A stretch of DNA of 42,096 bases from NCBI GenBank assembly GCA_938074535.1, contig CALJER010000043.1, forward strand, positions 1-42,096, in the 5' to 3' direction. The DNA is from an uncultured archaeon (lineage in GTDB: Archaea; Hadarchaeota; Hadarchaeia; Hadarchaeales; WYZ-LMO6). The notes under the pieces are model-generated. The model was not told the origin of the DNA. It made no database searches and was given only the letters and a program-made list of their open reading frames with translations. The position numbers were made by a program, and so were the translations under genes. This document shows, piece by piece, positions 15,059 to 26,608 of the stretch (position 1 is its first letter; every line of letters begins with the position of its first letter).

Positions 15059-16015
15059 CTACTTCTTCCCCAGGTGCTCCCTCACGGGGCGGAAGAGCTC
15101 GATGAGACCCTCGGCCACGGCCGGCTTCAAATCGGCAGGATGAAGTTCTCCCTCCCTGTACCTTCTTCTGAGCTCACCAGCCTCCTCAAGGAAAATCGTG
15201 CCCCCGTGCCTCTCGGACCTCCTCACCTCCAACCCTCTCGTGTAGGGGAGCACCAGATGCTCGGCGTACTCCACCACGGGGTTCCCCTCCACCTGCCTGG
15301 GAGGGCAGAAGGCCTTCCGGATCTTCTCCCTTACCTCATCGGGCGAATCGTCCACCGCTATAAAGTTGCCCTTGGAGGACGACATTTTGACATCCCCGTC
15401 GAGGCCGTGCAGCAGGGGCATGTGCACGCACACGGGCTTCCTGTGACCCAGCTTCTCCAGCTTCTCCCTGGCTATCATGTGGACCTTCCTCTGGTCCTCC
15501 CCTCCCACCGCCACCTCCACTTTCAGATGGACCATATCGACCGCCTGCATGAGGGGGTAGAGCACCTGGGCCACGTCTGGATTCTCCGCCTTCCTGGCTA
15601 TCTCCGCCATGGCCCTCCTGGCCCTGAGGAGGGTGGTTTCCGTGGACAACCTCAGCACATCCGTCATGTACTCCCGGCTTAGCTGGAACTCCGAACCCAG
15701 CCTGTACTCCGTCTTCGGGGGGACCAGCCCCATCCCTACGAAGCATTCCCTGTTGTACTCCGTGATCCTTCTTATCTCCTCCAGCGTGCCTTTGTGGTTC
15801 AGATAGGCATGGAGGTCCGCCAAAAGCACTATGACCCGGGCACCTTCTCTCTGGAAGTCGAGCAGCTTGAAGGCGGTGAGGGCATGACCGCAGTGGATCC
15901 TGCCCGAGGGCTCGTATCCGCAGTAAACCGTGGGTCTTCCCTTCATCACCTCCTTCAGCTCCTCCTCCGTCACCACCTCCGCGGCTCCCCTCCTCACCCT
16001 CTCGTAGGCATCCAT
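15059..16015 (-). CDS. tyrS: Tyrosyl-tRNA synthetase
   Basis: Class I synthetase that charges tRNA-Tyr. The 318-residue protein has YCGYEPSGRIHCGHALTAFKL (HxGH motif) near residue 31, the VLLADLHAYLNHKG segment, the tyrosine-binding PLMQAVDMVHLKVEVAVGGEDQRKVHM region, and DVKMSSSKGNFIAVDD, a canonical KMSSS loop. The short archaeal/eukaryotic type lacks the bacterial S4 tail. An ATG at 16015 follows directly after an in-frame TTG at 16018; the ATG is preferred because it lies 27 bases after a TTTTTTA element. Downstream minD is separated by about 55 bases with its own TATA. Confidence 0.95.
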   Translation of the reverse strand: MDAYERVRRGAAEVVTEEELKEVMKGRPTVYCGYEPSGRIHCGHALTAFKLLDFQREGARVIVLLADLHAYLNHKGTLEEIRRITEYNRECFVGMGLVPPKTEYRLGSEFQLSREYMTDVLRLSTETTLLRARRAMAEIARKAENPDVAQVLYPLMQAVDMVHLKVEVAVGGEDQRKVHMIAREKLEKLGHRKPVCVHMPLLHGLDGDVKMSSSKGNFIAVDDSPDEVREKIRKAFCPPRQVEGNPVVEYAEHLVLPYTRGLEVRRSERHGGTIFLEEAGELRRRYREGELHPADLKPAVAEGLIELFRPVREHLGKK

Positions 16016-16037
16016 CAAGTCCCTTCACCTCACGGGG

Positions 16038-16054: not shown

Positions 16055-17647
16055 TCAAGAATCCCCGGACCTGCCCTCCGCGCCGTCGCCCACTGCCCAG
16101 GAGAACTTCTTCAGGAGGGACTTGGGGTATATCCTCTCCACCCCGTATCCCACCTTCCTGGCCCAGGAGGCGTAGACCCTCGGATCGATGTAGGAGTTGA
16201 GGGAGGTGCCCAAGTTGAAGTCCCTTATCTCGCGCTCCAGCTCCAGCCTGAGCCTGAGCTCCCTTATCCTCTCCCTCAGCTTCCTCACCCTTTCCTCCGT
16301 CCTCTTTCCAGGCTTCTCCCGCAGCTCCGCTATCCTCCGCTCCAGCGCCCTTATCCTCTCCCTTATCCTCTCCATCTTTTTCTTCCATCCGGCGGGAACC
16401 TTGCGCTTGTGGTTCAGCTCCTCAGCAGCCCTCAGGTTGGCCATCTTGGCCGCGTACCTCTTCTCCATCTCCGTGCTCCCCCTCCCCACCTTCACCTTCT
16501 TCAGCTCCTCCTCCACTATCCTGGAGGCGTGGTAAGTGCGGAAGACCTTCGCCGTAAGACCCGGCATCGCTTCCCCCAGAAAGGAGTTAACATCCTCCGA
16601 ACTCACGCCCGGGAAAATCCTCTCTCCTCCCCTGCCCGCGAACTCCTTCAGGTTCCGGAGAACCTCGGGAGAGGGATCCAGGATCTTGGACCACCGCACA
16701 TGATCTTTACCCAAGAAGCTGAACTTCACCCTCCCTCCGTCGAACTTGAGGTGCTGCGGTCCCAGCGTGGTGGCCCCCACCGTGTTCCTCTCCTCCCTGT
16801 CCCTCTCGTCGCCCACCCTCAGCTTCAGCTCATCTATGAGATAGCAAACGGTTGCCACCATCCTGCGCTTGGGATCGGGATCCGAGAGACCCTTCCTTAT
16901 GTGCTCCCTCACTCTCTCAATCTTCCTGCCCAGCTCCCTGGCACGGTCGAACTTCTCCTTCTCCCTCTCCTGCTTCAGGGGGGAGGAGTCTGAGAGCCAG
17001 ACATACTTCATCTTTCCCGTGAGCTTGTCCCTCCACTTCGCTATCCAGAGGGCGCCCGGGTCCCACTCCCTCCCACCCCACCTCCTGCCGGCTGGGGCCT
17101 CCGGCATGGGTGCCTCGGGGGAGAGGTTGAGGATGATATCCTCGTACTCCACCCTGGGCTTCCACCTGCCCCTCTGGGGATGCTTTCCCCTCCCCACGAA
17201 AACACAGGGAGGTTCGACCGTGTAGTTCTTCACCTCCACCCTCTCCCCGTCGATCCAGGCCGTGCCCCATCTCTCCCTGTTGGCCTCCCTCAGGCGCCTG
17301 CGCTCCTCGGCCAGCCTCCTACGCTCCTCCCTCGTCATTTCCTCTTTTCTCTTCCTCTCCCGCTCAAGCCACTCCAACACGGGTGAAAAATCGAAATGCC
17401 CAAGCTCCGTGTCCCTGGGCAAACCCAGGGCCTCGCTGAAATCGGAGAGGAAGTTCCTCACGAAAACCCCGTCCTCCCCCCTGCCTGCCAGCAGGTGCCT
17501 GCCAAAGGCCACGGCCATTTCCTCCTGCTGGGGATTCAAATCCACCCTCTTTCCCCGGTACAGGATGTGCAGTCCCTTGAACTCGTAGGGCGGAAGCAGA
17601 ACGCCCTTGTGAACAAGGGATTTCATCCTCGCTTTCCTCTTTTCCAT
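16055..17647 (-). CDS. Eukaryote-type DNA topoisomerase IB
   Basis: Relaxes supercoils of either sign through a 3'-phosphotyrosine intermediate. The 530-residue protein covers the core and C-terminal domains of the eukaryotic enzyme without its long charged N-terminus. Catalytic residues line up with human Top1: R in LRVGDERD (about 277), K in FSFLGKDHVRW (about 314), R in TAKVFRTYHASR (about 370), H in EELNHKRKVP (about 413) and the nucleophile Tyr in LGTSLNSYIDPR (about 486). A charged coiled-coil linker (about 420-475) precedes the Tyr, as in eukaryotes. The N-terminal GVLLPPYEFKGLHILYRGKRVDL matches the cap domain. The ATG at 17647 is 29 bases from a TATA-like CTTTTTAG on this strand; a TTG at 17668 and an ATG at 17626 are alternatives. 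Confidence 0.95.
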   Translation of the reverse strand: MEKRKARMKSLVHKGVLLPPYEFKGLHILYRGKRVDLNPQQEEMAVAFGRHLLAGRGEDGVFVRNFLSDFSEALGLPRDTELGHFDFSPVLEWLERERKRKEEMTREERRRLAEERRRLREANRERWGTAWIDGERVEVKNYTVEPPCVFVGRGKHPQRGRWKPRVEYEDIILNLSPEAPMPEAPAGRRWGGREWDPGALWIAKWRDKLTGKMKYVWLSDSSPLKQEREKEKFDRARELGRKIERVREHIRKGLSDPDPKRRMVATVCYLIDELKLRVGDERDREERNTVGATTLGPQHLKFDGGRVKFSFLGKDHVRWSKILDPSPEVLRNLKEFAGRGGERIFPGVSSEDVNSFLGEAMPGLTAKVFRTYHASRIVEEELKKVKVGRGSTEMEKRYAAKMANLRAAEELNHKRKVPAGWKKKMERIRERIRALERRIAELREKPGKRTEERVRKLRERIRELRLRLELEREIRDFNLGTSLNSYIDPRVYASWARKVGYGVERIYPKSLLKKFSWAVGDGAEGRSGDS

Positions 17648-17672
17648 CCTTTTCCGAAAAGACCTCAAGCTC

Positions 17673-17680
17673 TAAAAAGT
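17673..17680 (-). promoter_or_regulatory. TATA box of topoisomerase IB
   Basis: CTTTTTAG on the minus strand, next to the stop codon of the LAGLIDADG-like gene and about 29 bases from the ATG at 17647. Confidence 0.45.
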
Positions 17681-18006
17681 TAGAACCTACCCCTCTGCTT
17701 CCACTGGAGAACATTCTCTTTCCACTTTTCATACTGCCGGATTTTGGAGGGGGTTCTGAGCCCCCCTTCTAGAAACTCCATAAGCGCCACTACCTCCCTC
17801 TTTTTTCTCACCTCCCAGCGGTAGAGGTTCCCTACCTTTTTTACCTCCCCCAGTCCCGTTGCTTCCCTCAGAAAAAGAAGGGTTTCTTTCTCCATCTGGG
17901 TGAGGAAGAAGGCCGGGTTCTGGTAACTCCTGCGCCCTGCCACCACCCTGTTGGTGGTGAAGCATCCCTTTGCTTCCAGGTATCCCAAGATCCAGTCCTT
18001 CTCCAT
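17680..18006 (-). CDS. Small LAGLIDADG-like protein, catalytic acid replaced by Lys
   Basis: A 108-residue free-standing protein. Its N-terminus DWILGYLEAKGCFTTN matches the first helix and following strand of single-motif LAGLIDADG homing endonucleases, including the packing glycines. The later QNPAFFLTQMEKETLLFLREATGLGEVKK and YRWEVRKKREVVALMEFLE segments fit the fold (strand, helix, strand, helix). The metal-binding acidic residue of the motif (the D before the last G, D20 in I-CreI) is a Lys here, so nuclease activity is unlikely and a DNA-binding role is more plausible. The gene lies wholly between two inverted ORB elements of the candidate origin, with a palindrome just upstream of its ATG at 18006. 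It is not an intein or intron remnant that I can see. Confidence 0.72.
   Translation of the reverse strand: MEKDWILGYLEAKGCFTTNRVVAGRRSYQNPAFFLTQMEKETLLFLREATGLGEVKKVGNLYRWEVRKKREVVALMEFLEGGLRTPSKIRQYEKWKENVLQWKQRGRF
17690..17709 (-). repeat. ORB-like element 1 (inverted)
   Basis: On the minus strand it reads CTCCAGTGGAAGCAGAGGGG, followed by T. It differs from ORB element 2 at one of 20 positions and carries the CCAGTGGAA core and G-string of archaeal Orc1/Cdc6 boxes. It sits in the last codons of the LAGLIDADG-like gene. Confidence 0.75.
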
Positions 18007-18015
18007 ATTTGATAT

Positions 18016-18033
18016 GTTTGTTACAAACGTTTG
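18016..18033. promoter_or_regulatory. Palindromic operator-like site upstream of the LAGLIDADG-like gene
   Basis: GTTTG-TTA-CAAAC-GTTTG: an interrupted inverted repeat followed by the perfect palindrome CAAACGTTTG at 18024-18033. It lies 10-27 bases upstream of the ATG at 18006, between it and a T/A-rich promoter element, the place expected for autorepression, and inside the AT-rich part of the candidate origin. Confidence 0.5.
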
Positions 18034-18051
18034 GGTAAAAATAATTAACAG

Positions 18052-18071
18052 CTCCAGTGGAAACAGAGGGG
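18052..18071 (+). repeat. ORB-like element 2
   Basis: CTCCAGTGGAAACAGAGGGG, followed by T. This is a close match to the mini-ORB consensus recalled for Orc1/Cdc6 binding (CCAGTGGAAAC core, then a G-string). It lies in the non-coding gap, with the G-string pointing toward hsp20 and away from element 1. Confidence 0.8.
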
Positions 18072-18083
18072 TCTGTCCGAGAG

Positions 18084-18090
18084 ATTTATA
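18084..18090 (+). promoter_or_regulatory. TATA box of hsp20
   Basis: ATTTATA, about 32 bases before the GTG at 18119. It lies 12 bases from ORB element 2, so origin binding and hsp20 transcription may interfere. Confidence 0.5.
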
Positions 18091-18118
18091 GGGGGGAAAA
18101 AGAAAATTTTGGGAGAGG

Positions 18119-18532
18119 GTGTTCGAGGAGGACTTCTTCGAGAAAATAAGGAGGATGGTCGAGGAGACGGAGAGGAAACAGGAGGAGATTTCGGTGGAGA
18201 TAAAGGGATCCGAAGCCTCCTCGGTGAGGGTCAGAAGAAGGGGTCCGAGAGTCCTAGAGCAGGTAAGCATACAGGAAACCCTGGAAACGGAGTACATGTG
18301 CCTGGAAAAACCCAGGGAGATGATTTTCTGCATGCACGTGCCCGGCGTGGAGAGGGAAGGCATAGAGATACGGAGGAGGGGAAGGGCGCTGGAAATCGTC
18401 GCGAAGAGGAGGGACGGGAGGGCCTACTTCTCAACCTTCGAACTCCCCCGGAACGCGGTTCCAGAGGAGCGCATTCTGAGGGTAAAGGATGGCCTTTTAG
18501 TTTTGATCATCCCAAAGAGGAAGAGAGTCTGA
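18119..18532 (+). CDS. Small heat-shock protein, Hsp20/alpha-crystallin domain
   Basis: A 137-residue ATP-independent holdase-type protein. A helical, charged N-terminal arm (about 1-45) is followed by the alpha-crystallin beta sandwich: EMIFCMHVPGVEREGIEIRRRGRALEIVAKR and FELPRNAVPEERILRVKDGLLVLIIPK, with the conserved A/G-x-L-like DGLLVLIIPK strand near the end. The usual C-terminal I-x-I tail is missing because the protein stops after KRKRV, so its oligomer contacts may differ. The GTG start at 18119 follows GGGAGAGG. Its TGA stop is in the same frame as the downstream ACT-domain gene. Confidence 0.85.
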   Translation: MFEEDFFEKIRRMVEETERKQEEISVEIKGSEASSVRVRRRGPRVLEQVSIQETLETEYMCLEKPREMIFCMHVPGVEREGIEIRRRGRALEIVAKRRDGRAYFSTFELPRNAVPEERILRVKDGLLVLIIPKRKRV

Positions 18533-22740: not shown

Positions 22741-22884
22741 ATGCGTCCAATTTTTATGGAGGTAAAAAAATTTCACCGTCCTAAAAAAAGAGAATTCTTT
22801 TTTGTCACCGATGGGGAGATAAGAGCTCTCTTCGGACCGACGGTTAAGCGGGGGGAAACTCTTGGAAGAACTTGCCGGGGCTGA
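22741..22884 (+). CDS. Possible small protein in the mcm leader (47 aa)
   Basis: An open frame from ATG 22741 (or ATG 22756) to TGA 22884, overlapping the mcm start by 23 bases. It encodes a basic N-terminus and then REFFFVTDGEIRALFGPTVK, which reads like real protein, but I recognise no family. Base composition is AT-rich compared with all neighbours, so it may instead be a promoter/leader region that happens to be open. No convincing ribosome-binding site was found for the first ATG; GGAGG at 22758-22762 comes after it. Confidence 0.3.
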   Translation: MRPIFMEVKKFHRPKKREFFFVTDGEIRALFGPTVKRGETLGRTCRG

Positions 22885-24886
22885 GGAGGAGCTCAAGGAG
22901 AAGTTGAGGGAGTTCTTCTCCCGCAGGAAGATCAGAAAAGAGCTGGAGGCTGCTCAGGCCGCGGGGAAAACCTCTTTGGTGGTGGAGTTCGATGACCTGA
23001 TAGCCCACGAGAAGGGATTTCTGGCCGACTCCCTGCTGAAGTCCCCGCATCGCTTCTTCCGTGTAGCGAACGAGCTGCTGGCCGAAGAGAGCGGCAACCC
23101 GAAGATGCAGCTGAGGGTGAAGGGGTCAGGAGAGGTCGTCAAAATTCGCAACTTGAGGGCGGGGCACGTGGGGAAGTTCATACAGGTGGAGGGCATTCTC
23201 ACGAGGGCCAGCGAGATAAAGCCAGAGATAAGGGAAGCCCTCTTCAGGTGCCTGCACTGCGGAGAGCTTAACTCGGTTCCGCAGAGCGAGGAGATTTTCA
23301 GGGAGCCCCTCAGCTGTCAGAACCCCAACTGCAGGAGAAGAGGTCCCTTCAAGCTGGAGGTGGAGAAGTCGGAGTTCAGGGACTGGCAGAGCCTCAGGGT
23401 TCAGGAGAAGCACGAGGAGCTGAGGGGAGGACGCATGCCCATGATGCTGGACTGCATCGTGAGGGACGACCTGGTCGACGTAGCGGTTCCGGGCAATCAT
23501 GTGGTGATGAGCGGGATTCTGGAGGTCTTCCAGGAGAGCGTCAAGCAGAGGAAGATGAAAACCTTCAGAAAGGTGCTCTACGTTTCCCACCTGGAGGTTT
23601 TGCAAAAAGGGGTGGAGGAGACCGAGCTCACGGAGGAGGACGAGAAGAAGATAAAGGAATTGATCAAGGATCCTTGGTTCTACCACAACGTCATCAAGTC
23701 CGTGGCGCCCAGCGTGCACGGTTACGAGGCGGTGAAGGAGGGAATAGCCTTGATGCTCTTCGGCTGCGATCCCCTGGAGCTTCCGGACAGGACCAGGATA
23801 AGAGGGGACATCCACATCCTCCTCACTGGAGATCCAGGCGTGGCGAAGAGCATGCTTCTCTCCTGGACGGCCAACGTGGCTCCGAGGGGCCTGTACACCT
23901 CCGGGAAGAAGGCCACGGGAGCGGGGCTGACGGCGGCGGCGGTCAGGGATGATCTCGGAGGCGGGTGGACCCTGGAGGCGGGTGCGCTGGTGATAGCCGA
24001 CGGTGGGGTAGCATGCATAGACGAATTTGACAAGATGGCGGATGAAGACAGGAGTGCCATCCTGGAAGCGTTGGAGCAGCAGACGATTTCAGTGGCCAAA
24101 GCCGGAATAGTGGCCACCCTCAACTCTAGAACCTCCGTGCTCGCAGCCTCCAACCCCAAGATGGGCAGACTGGACAGGAACCGCAACCTGGTCCAGCAGA
24201 TAGGTCTGGAGCCGGTGATCCTGTCCAGGTTCGACCTCATCTTCATCATAAGGGACGAACCGCACGGGGAGACCGACAAGAAAATTGCGAAGCACATGCT
24301 GGAGCTTCACAGGAAGCCGGAGATAGCCAGACCCCCCATAGACTCCGAAATGCTGCGGAAGCTGATCATCTACGCTAGGAAGCACATCCACCCCAAGTTG
24401 AAGGACGAGAAGGTGATCAAGAGGATGGAGGAGTTCTATGTCAAGTACAGGAGCGTGGCGGAAAGGGGGGAGCCGGTGCCCATCACCCCCAGGCAGCTTG
24501 AGTCCATCATAAGACTGGCCAAGGCCAGCGCCAGGATGCACTTCAGGGAGGAGGTGACGGAGGAGGATGCGAGCAGGGGCATAGAGCTCATCTCCAAGTA
24601 CCTGCAGGAGGCAGGCGTTGACACCGCCACGGGAAAGGTGGATATAGACTCCATCATCACGGGGAAGACCAAGAGCCAGAGGGACAAGGCCCAGAAGGTG
24701 ATGGACCTCATAGGGGAGTTGGAGAACAAGCACGGCGGCATGGCCCCGATAGAAGAAATCGTGCAGAGGGCCAAGGGGGAGGGAATAGAGGAGAGCTTCG
24801 TTCTCAAGTGGATAGAGGGAGAGAAGAGGGAGGGTTTCCTCTACGAGCCCAAGACAGGTTACGTGACGAGGGTGTTTAAAGGATGA
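22862..24886 (+). CDS. mcm: Replicative DNA helicase MCM
   Basis: The 3'-5' hexameric helicase of the replication fork. The 674-residue protein has an N-terminal domain with a zinc site (Cys at about 130, 133, 152 and 157) and an OB fold. The AAA+ domain follows: Walker A GDPGVAKSM near 323-331, the GLTAAAVRDDLGGGWTLEAGALVIAD insert, Walker B CIDEFDKM near 385, sensor 1 AASNPKMG, and the arginine-finger segment LSRFDLIF. A winged-helix C-terminus ends in VTRVFKG. There is no intein, though mcm is a frequent archaeal intein host. The start is a TTG at 22862 after GGGGGGAAA. It heads the replisome gene chain; its stop overlaps gins by four bases. Confidence 0.96.
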   Translation: MEELAGAEEELKEKLREFFSRRKIRKELEAAQAAGKTSLVVEFDDLIAHEKGFLADSLLKSPHRFFRVANELLAEESGNPKMQLRVKGSGEVVKIRNLRAGHVGKFIQVEGILTRASEIKPEIREALFRCLHCGELNSVPQSEEIFREPLSCQNPNCRRRGPFKLEVEKSEFRDWQSLRVQEKHEELRGGRMPMMLDCIVRDDLVDVAVPGNHVVMSGILEVFQESVKQRKMKTFRKVLYVSHLEVLQKGVEETELTEEDEKKIKELIKDPWFYHNVIKSVAPSVHGYEAVKEGIALMLFGCDPLELPDRTRIRGDIHILLTGDPGVAKSMLLSWTANVAPRGLYTSGKKATGAGLTAAAVRDDLGGGWTLEAGALVIADGGVACIDEFDKMADEDRSAILEALEQQTISVAKAGIVATLNSRTSVLAASNPKMGRLDRNRNLVQQIGLEPVILSRFDLIFIIRDEPHGETDKKIAKHMLELHRKPEIARPPIDSEMLRKLIIYARKHIHPKLKDEKVIKRMEEFYVKYRSVAERGEPVPITPRQLESIIRLAKASARMHFREEVTEEDASRGIELISKYLQEAGVDTATGKVDIDSIITGKTKSQRDKAQKVMDLIGELENKHGGMAPIEEIVQRAKGEGIEESFVLKWIEGEKREGFLYEPKTGYVTRVFKG

Positions 24887-25410
24887 AGGTCCACTGCACG
24901 GTCAGGAAGGATTTTGAGGCGGATCTGGGCGGCGGCCCATCCTCCTGGAGGGAGGGAGAAAGGGTCGAGCTGGAGCACTGGCAGATGAGGGTGCTGAGGA
25001 GGCACGGGCTGGCGGAGCCCCTCAACCCGCTGGGACTGGCCGCCGTGAGGAAGCTCCTGCTCCTGGAGGGTAAACAGCCGGGGCTCCAGCCCCTTCCGCA
25101 GGGTTTCTACGCGCTGCTGGCGGAGGAGATAGAGTACCGCAGGGAGAGGGGGGAGGAGGAGGCGGAAGAACTCAGGAGGGCGGCGGAAGATTTCCTGGAG
25201 CTGCGCCTGCAGAAGCTCGTGCGTTTGGCCCCCTTTCCCTCCCAGGCCAAGGGTGCCCTGCCGGAGGAAAGGGTGCTCTTGGAGGAGCTGGGCAGGGGGA
25301 TAGAGGAGTGGAGAAAGTGGATGAGTAAGAGGTTGAAGGTGGGGGAAAATGAGGGAAGGAGAACTCTTCGGGAGCTGGACGGAGAGAAGCCAGATCTTCA
25401 GGAACCGTGA
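24883..25410 (+). CDS. GINS complex subunit, GINS23-like (B-A domain order)
   Basis: Subunit of the GINS tetramer that joins MCM and GAN/RecJ in the archaeal CMG. The 175-residue protein starts with a small beta domain (KVHCTVRKDFEADLGG...GERVELEHWQMRVLRRHGLAEP, about 1-46). A helical A-domain follows, with LQPLPQGFYALLAEEIEYRR and EDFLELRLQKLVRLAPFP, the latter resembling the GINS R-x-x-K-L core. The B-then-A order points to Gins23 rather than Gins15. The ATGA overlap with mcm and the known mcm-gins23 pairing in Thermococcales support the call. The C-terminal 60 bases overlap the orc1 gene in another frame. Confidence 0.75.
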   Translation: MKVHCTVRKDFEADLGGGPSSWREGERVELEHWQMRVLRRHGLAEPLNPLGLAAVRKLLLLEGKQPGLQPLPQGFYALLAEEIEYRRERGEEEAEELRRAAEDFLELRLQKLVRLAPFPSQAKGALPEERVLLEELGRGIEEWRKWMSKRLKVGENEGRRTLRELDGEKPDLQEP

Positions 25411-26608
25411 GCTTCTCCGGCCCAGCTACCTGCCCGAGAGGCTCCCACACAGAGAGGAGCAGATCGGGAGGCTGGCGAGGATTCTATCCTTTCCCCTGAG
25501 GGGTGAGACCCCCTCCAACGTCTTCATCTACGGGAAGACGGGGACCGGTAAGACGGCTACCGTGAGGTACGTGCTGGGAGAGCTGGAGAAAATGGGGAGA
25601 AAGCTGAACCGGGGGATAAAGGGGATTTACCTGAACTGTGAGAGGGTGAACACCAGGTACCGCGTGCTGGCTACCCTCACCAACTCCCTCCTGAACGGCA
25701 CCTCCTCCGTCCCCACGACCGGCTGGCCCATCGATGTGCTGTACGAGACCTTCCTCAGGGTGCTGGACTCGGAGGAGCGCGTGCTGATCATAGTGATGGA
25801 CGAGGTGGACCGGATGGTGGTGAAGAAGGGGGATGAGGTGCTCTACGACCTCACCAGGGTGAACTCGGAGCTGGAGAGGGCAAAGGTGAGCGTGATAGGG
25901 ATCTCCAACGATGCCAGGTTCACCCACTACCTGGATCCGCGCGTGAGGAGCAGCTTGGGGGAGGAAGAGCTGGTGTTCCCCCCCTACGACGCCCTCCAGC
26001 TGAGGGACATCTTGGAAGAGAGGGCTTCCGGGGCCTTCCAGCCCGGGGCTCTGGAAGGGGGGGTTCTCTCCCTCTGTGCGGCCCACGCGGCGAGGGAGCA
26101 CGGTGACGCCAGGAGGGCGCTGGATCTCCTGAGGGTTGCGGGTGAGCTGTCGGAGCAGGAGGGAGCGATGCGTGTTACGCTGGAGCACGTGAGAAGAGCC
26201 TACGAAAAGCTGGAGGAGGACAAGATGGTGGAAATCGTCCGCACCCTCCCCAGCCAGTCCAAGCTGCTGCTCTTCAGTCTTTTGCTCCTGGTGGAGAGGG
26301 GTGCGGAAAAGGTGACCACGGGGGAGGTCTATGAGGCTTACCGGAGGGTGAGCCTCCAGAAGGGCCTGGATCCCCTCACCCCCCGCAGGGTGAGCGATCT
26401 TCTCTCGGAGCTTGAGATGCTGGGGGTGGTGAGCACCAGAATCCTCAACAGCGGCAGGTACGGCAGGACCAAGGAGATTTCCCTCAACCTCCCCACACGG
26501 CAGCTCAGAAAGATGCTGGAGGGGGATGGGATGCTCCTCCCCCACACCGTTTCTCTTCTTCGCCAGGCGAAGCTTGGGGGATGGGAATGGACGGGGGAAG
26601 CCTGGTAA
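25349..26608 (+). CDS. cdc6: Orc1/Cdc6 origin-binding initiator
   Basis: AAA+ initiator that binds ORB elements and recruits MCM. The 419-residue protein has the IFRNRELLRPSYLPERLPHREEQI lead-in typical of Orc1/Cdc6, Walker A GKTGTGKT at 62-69, Walker B IIVMDEVDRM, sensor 1 GISNDARF, sensor 2 HGDARRALDLLRVAGELSE, and a C-terminal winged helix (LFSLLLLVERGAEKVTTGEVYEAYRRV) that reads the ORB. The start ATG at 25349 lies inside the gins gene (62-base overlap). The last 28 bases overlap the PolD small-subunit gene. Its likely targets are the ORB elements at 17.69 and 18.05 kb. Confidence 0.96.
   Translation: MREGELFGSWTERSQIFRNRELLRPSYLPERLPHREEQIGRLARILSFPLRGETPSNVFIYGKTGTGKTATVRYVLGELEKMGRKLNRGIKGIYLNCERVNTRYRVLATLTNSLLNGTSSVPTTGWPIDVLYETFLRVLDSEERVLIIVMDEVDRMVVKKGDEVLYDLTRVNSELERAKVSVIGISNDARFTHYLDPRVRSSLGEEELVFPPYDALQLRDILEERASGAFQPGALEGGVLSLCAAHAAREHGDARRALDLLRVAGELSEQEGAMRVTLEHVRRAYEKLEEDKMVEIVRTLPSQSKLLLFSLLLLVERGAEKVTTGEVYEAYRRVSLQKGLDPLTPRRVSDLLSELEMLGVVSTRILNSGRYGRTKEISLNLPTRQLRKMLEGDGMLLPHTVSLLRQAKLGGWEWTGEAW

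Follow-up and report, generated by a model that had tools for sequence, protein, structure and literature searches.

A predicted chromosomal replication origin of Hadarchaeales that contains a gene of probable homing-endonuclease descent

The window analysed here is a complete 42-kb contig of a Hadarchaeota archaeon of the order Hadarchaeales, whose genome assembly comprises 1.206 Mb in 53 contigs. It contains two 20-bp elements (Table 1) that the first-pass annotation had taken for the ORBs of a candidate replication origin. Both lie at the positions and on the strands assigned to them, differ from each other at a single base and are followed by a T. A search of the entire assembly allowing up to three mismatches retrieves these two sites and no others, and the reversed control pattern retrieves none. 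With a weight matrix built from ORBs of other genera only, the two elements are the two highest-scoring sites of the window, at 27.5 and 24.6 bits, compared with a top score of 21.6 bits for the same matrix across 60 first-order Markov windows. The proposed match to the Orc1/Cdc6 ORB pattern is further borne out by agreement with a published list of archaeal ORBs, including the characteristic G-string, as in the Methanomassiliicoccales element TTTCCACTGGAAACAG-AGGGGT (PMC4153887). The AT-rich tract that had been noticed beside one of the elements is real and adjoins the right ORB; its AT content is 76%, against 38% for the window, which ranks it with the contig's most AT-rich 45-mers. Equivalent tracts are present in 10 relatives, and the arrangement of inverted ORBs flanking an AT-rich unwinding region, which is typical of archaeal oriC, is found here with a conserved ORB pair.

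The genes diverge from this locus, as annotated. To the left, the genes for the LAGLIDADG protein described below, a type IB topoisomerase, tyrosyl-tRNA synthetase (tyrS) and a MinD/ParA-type ATPase are located on the minus strand; to the right, genes for Hsp20-like and ACT-domain proteins, homoserine dehydrogenase, threonine synthase (thrC), SHMT, MCM, Gins23, Orc1 and both PolD subunits follow on the plus strand, in accord with the earlier placement of the replication genes on this side. Adjacency to orc1/cdc6 is typical of archaeal oriC but not universal, and here orc1 indeed is not directly next to the locus but at a distance of about 7.3 kb, an order of genes that relatives share. This order is kept over much of Hadarchaeales, and in most genomes tyrS immediately adjoins the ORBs. 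The topoisomerase, a eukaryote-type protein of three domains, is encoded between the origin and tyrS only in the genus of the window. Another origin neighbor, adjoining the locus in 13 genomes of family f3, is a gene (L108:7424-8344, minus strand, and the other members of cluster c6) with faint similarity to LigD_Prim-Pol primase-polymerases (E = 0.064). In the most distant member of the phylum (L119, G027:C27), four ORB-like elements are located near orc1, and neither the LAGLIDADG gene nor gene X (see below) was found there; because these elements lie near orc1, an origin remote from orc1 may be peculiar to the order.

Table 1. Coordinates of the features discussed, in the window unless a locus or contig is named
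Feature	Coordinates	Strand	Remarks
Tyrosyl-tRNA synthetase	15059..16018	-	conserved origin neighbor in the order
Type IB topoisomerase	16055..17668	-	left neighbor; tyrS holds the same position in most relatives
Single-motif LAGLIDADG gene	17680..18006	-	108 aa
Left ORB	17690..17709	-	CTCCAGTGGAAGCAGAGGGG then T; outward facing; within the 3' coding end of the LAGLIDADG gene
AT-rich tract	18007..18051	.	candidate duplex-unwinding element; flanked by the right ORB and the LAGLIDADG start codon
Right ORB	18052..18071	+	CTCCAGTGGAAACAGAGGGG then T; outward facing; upstream of the LAGLIDADG gene; kept in relatives
Hsp20-like gene	18119..18532	+	right neighbor
MCM helicase	22862..24886	+	
GINS (Gins23)	24883..25410	+	
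Orc1/Cdc6	25349..26608	+	presumed ORB-binding initiator; distance measured from the right ORB
Gene X	L108:8359-8922; L107:7977-8675	-; -	equivalents in G007, G012, G015, G016, G017, G019, G020, G025 and G026
Distant X relatives	L172:851-1144; L171:685-978; L176:545-847		
Dyad TGWTACNNNNGTAWCA, examples	G004:C5:30595 and 30731		

An outward-facing pair of ORB-like elements, counted at a matrix score of at least 14, occupies the corresponding syntenic position across the order and was detected in 19 of the 24 loci compared, the second element being weak in several of these. A single element exceeds the threshold in genomes G014, G023, G012 and G007, and the contig of G011 begins too near tyrS for the pair to be judged. 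The spacing of the elements is 96-221 bp in loci without the LAGLIDADG gene (821 bp in G016) and 362-417 bp in those with it.

A change in skew, which the first-pass annotation had expected at this position, was sought in the long contigs of two relatives, G001 (440 kb) and G005 (250 kb), using G-C skew at third codon positions (GC3) with genes of the two strands treated separately, so that the effect of gene orientation was removed. In G001, the values for plus- and minus-strand genes are -0.003 and 0.166 to the left of the locus, and 0.126 and -0.004 to the right; in G005, they are -0.015 and 0.108 to the left, and 0.104 and 0.022 to the right. Thus, coding-strand skew is higher for genes that point away from the locus, and the orientation-corrected skew changes sign there. 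The best single change point in G005 is at 87.0 kb, next to the locus at 87.96 kb (bootstrap quartiles 87-87 kb, 5-95% range 85-153 kb), and a change point at the locus (326.5 kb) fits the G001 data as well as the best one at 365 kb, the bootstrap range being broad (325-365 kb). The change-point R2 is 0.21 in G001 and 0.13 in G005, compared with 95% null values of 0.023 and 0.061, respectively. The leading-strand asymmetry therefore switches sign at or very near the locus in two genera that belong to two families. Raw cumulative GC skew was discarded as misleading because it tracks gene orientation, its global minimum falling at 366 kb in G001 and close to the end of the contig in G005.

Given the synteny and the skew in relatives, the locus of the ORB pair very probably is the chromosomal replication start of this archaeon; the original proposal of an origin is upheld by these comparisons and by the lack of scattered copies of the 20-mer. 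ORB-like sites in other archaea can serve regulation, and the pair might accordingly serve an Orc1 paralogue as a regulatory site while replication begins somewhere else. We consider this extremely unlikely, because in two families the skew switches sign at the locus, the genome has no other such pair and synteny of the locus extends across the order. A literature search found no study of a Hadarchaeota origin, and the loci compared here provide a first origin map for the phylum.

The space between the two ORBs had been described as filled by a complete small gene. The gene is real and conserved; the left ORB, rather than bounding it, lies inside its 3' end and encodes the C-terminus of the product, LQWKQRG. 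The identity of this gene, which had not been recognized before, is that of a LAGLIDADG protein: the sequence matches Pfam family PF00961 (LAGLIDADG_1) with E = 1.1e-5, exceeding the curated cut-off, as do 10 of the 11 family members. An AlphaFold2 model based on the alignment of the 11 members (pLDDT 93.4) has the classic alpha-beta-beta-alpha-beta-beta-alpha fold of the family, and the best Foldseek matches are the archaeal homing endonucleases I-TnaI (TM 0.85) and I-Vdi141I (TM 0.81). The active form of single-motif LAGLIDADG proteins is a homodimer and, since only one motif is present, the inter-ORB protein is expected to act as a homodimer as well.

The gene is present in 11 of the 28 genomes of the phylum, namely all four of family f1 and seven f3 genomes in four genera, and in all 11 it occupies the origin. 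Strong matches among 394 archaeal genomes come from these Hadarchaeota carriers only. Nine weak, distant LAGLIDADG homologues were detected in 366 other archaeal genomes, none with an ORB within about 1.5 kb on either side, and no LAGLIDADG-like reading frame is found between the ORBs of six further ORB-pair loci from other archaea. In the carriers, the start of the gene lies immediately inside one ORB (degenerate in G013) and its end falls in the other ORB or the remnant of that ORB, so that the conserved C-terminus [LF][QE]WKxR is encoded by ORB-like sequence. A strong in-gene ORB is seen in G000, G001, G002, G005 and G010, a weaker one in G003 and G006 and a weak one in G008 and G013, and in G014 and G023 it has decayed below detection; some carriers can therefore do without a gene-encoded ORB. 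All 11 genes use AGG for the Arg specified by the ORB core (the product of within-gene AGG fractions is 7e-7, or 9e-6 for f3 alone), even though several of them encode Arg mostly by other codons, which supports selection acting on the DNA as well as on the protein at this codon. The test for synonymous constraint concerns the AGG codon alone, the overlapping ORB as a whole being too short.

Known enzymes carry motifs such as GFVDGEGCF or GFIEAEGSF, whereas the motif of the window protein is LGYLEAKGCF, with Lys in place of the catalytic acid at the motif end. The acid is replaced in nine of the 11 members, by Lys in G000, G001, G002, G003, G008 and G023, Arg in G014, Cys in G010 and Ala in G005; Glu is found only in G006 and G013. 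The equivalent of the active-site Gln, at a position that we assign from what is generally held for the LAGLIDADG family, is also lost in most members, including G006 and G013. All 11 reading frames are nevertheless intact, and dN/dS values of 0.10-0.21, obtained where dS is unsaturated and with the terminal codons excluded, indicate purifying selection. Two LAGLIDADG proteins encoded away from the origin, L014 (G014:C36:6475-6780) and L015 (G023:C4:2465-2797), retain the catalytic acid; both of these genomes also carry an origin copy.

The loss of catalytic residues would also fit a functionless relic that decays in a harmless place, its protein sequence being kept only through the overlap with the ORB. 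This overlap spans no more than the last seven codons, outside of which the low dN/dS values were obtained, and the intact frames in all members likewise speak against decay, making a relic very unlikely.

A more serious rival is a selfish, free-standing homing endonuclease for which the highly conserved non-coding origin was both target and safe harbor: it would have cleaved unoccupied origins at a point between the two ORBs and inserted a copy of itself there, most copies now drifting into inactivity. The fold and the nearest solved relatives, which are archaeal homing endonucleases, fit this scenario, as do the apparently empty origins in the same order with their closely spaced ORBs and AT-rich sequence between them. 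The two acid-retaining members, in which cleavage is possible and which count against a non-cleaving role, keep this explanation alive, and the distribution of the gene requires at least three changes on the tyrS tree, a weakly resolved tree in which five of 18 branches are starred. Persistent purifying selection despite the loss of the acid, together with the loss of the Gln equivalent, is at odds with it. Moreover, presence of the gene is stable within clades, with no polymorphism within the genera for which the origin locus is assembled; neither the carrier genomes nor the gene tree, which recovers family f1 (98/99) and genus g7 (81/84), give any sign of horizontal transfer; and no second copies of the origin subfamily were found elsewhere in the genomes. 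On balance, we regard the selfish gene as a rather unlikely explanation.

Acid loss, low dN/dS, the gene tree and clade-wise presence jointly favor vertical inheritance and a role other than cleavage, as judged from sequence comparison. Because the metal-binding acid is gone in the window protein and most of its relatives yet purifying selection persists, the inter-ORB protein probably is a domesticated, non-cleaving DNA-binding protein that resides in the origin. Origins of the order do not generally depend on it to function, since half of the order lacks a counterpart.

In 11 other genomes of the order, ORB-like elements occupy the syntenic place without a LAGLIDADG gene. All 11 contain, directly outside the left ORB, a gene of about 190 codons that we denote X; it is missing from all 11 LAGLIDADG carriers, and no genome has both genes. 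The X protein has no match in Pfam, NCBIfam or, at E <= 0.001, the PDB. Homology of X to the LAGLIDADG gene was considered and ruled out, as profile comparison reveals none. The same kind of comparison, based on two small alignments, ties X to short proteins whose genes adjoin ORB pairs in members of two further archaeal families (E = 2.8e-6); in seven of nine genomes of these families, the genes lie 14-194 bp from the ORBs. X is thus a candidate for a widespread archaeal origin-associated protein. The LAGLIDADG gene may have replaced an older origin-linked gene.

We also observe a 16-bp dyad, TGWTACNNNNGTAWCA, close to the ORBs and frequently at the distal end of X in G004, G007, G009, G012 and genus g12. 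It recurs up to 15 times elsewhere in the same genomes, in intergenic or gene-boundary positions at the sites inspected. As a binding site for the LAGLIDADG protein, the dyad was rejected: exact copies are missing from 10 of the 11 carriers, and it belongs to the genomes with X. It may be a putative binding site of X, reminiscent of UBP and its ucm motif in Sulfolobus origins.

Taken together, these observations are explained fairly well, and in our judgment probably correctly, by a chromosomal origin of Hadarchaeales that holds a descendant of a homing endonuclease, now a non-cleaving DNA-binding protein acting at the origin. By analogy with the known archaeal mechanism, Orc1/Cdc6, encoded some 7 kb away, would bind the two outward-facing ORBs, and the AT-rich tract beside the right ORB would melt for MCM loading. 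The inter-ORB gene would derive from a free-standing LAGLIDADG homing endonuclease, and its product may bind the origin, or its own promoter inside the origin, sequence-specifically and without cutting, as an accessory or regulatory origin factor. With the left ORB formed by the last codons of the gene, gene and replicator would share sequence. A more specific version, to which we give somewhat less than even credence, is that the homing endonuclease became, through domestication, a replication factor that binds the origin and replaced X, its coding sequence becoming fused to an initiator-binding box. If so, a single stretch of DNA would serve as replicator and as the gene for its regulator.

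The usual picture of an archaeal origin is a non-coding ORB-DUE-ORB arrangement beside orc1; here, the origin contains a conserved gene of apparent mobile-element descent whose frame encodes an ORB. This opens two questions to testing, namely whether selfish homing genes can colonize a chromosomal replicator and be recruited by it, and which non-initiator proteins serve archaeal origins. Our search of the open literature retrieved no report of a LAGLIDADG gene within an archaeal chromosomal origin. The 11 occupied and 11 X-type origins within one order amount to a natural comparative experiment.

WhiA, with which the inter-ORB protein invites comparison, is not known to be encoded in an origin. 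WhiA of Gram-positive bacteria is a domesticated transcription regulator of the LAGLIDADG fold, a precedent for the conversion of a homing-endonuclease fold into a DNA-binding regulator, and differs from the window protein in its added HTH domain (PMC3781837). I-TnaI (5gkk) and I-Vdi141I (3e54) share with the window protein the fold, the single motif and about 22-26% identity over the structural match; both carry the catalytic Glu, and I-Vdi141I is encoded in an rRNA intron, whereas the window protein has Lys and its gene is free-standing in an origin. In the ORB-DUE-ORB origins of Sulfolobus (oriC1), haloarchaea (oriC1) and Thermococcales (oriC), polar inverted ORBs flank an AT-rich tract (PMC12141716, PMC4010727), and the present locus resembles them in this arrangement and in the ORB sequence itself (PMC4153887). 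It differs in having a complete protein-coding gene between its ORBs, one of which is part of the coding sequence, and in the distance of orc1, which is not adjacent. Finally, in Sulfolobus origins, UBP, a non-initiator DNA-binding protein, acts at the ucm motif in the unwinding region, which provides a precedent for such proteins at archaeal origins (PMC12141716). UBP is of an unrelated kind, has hundreds of binding sites and is encoded by a gene that has not been described as belonging to an origin; this system more closely resembles X and the dyads of the sister genomes than the LAGLIDADG gene.
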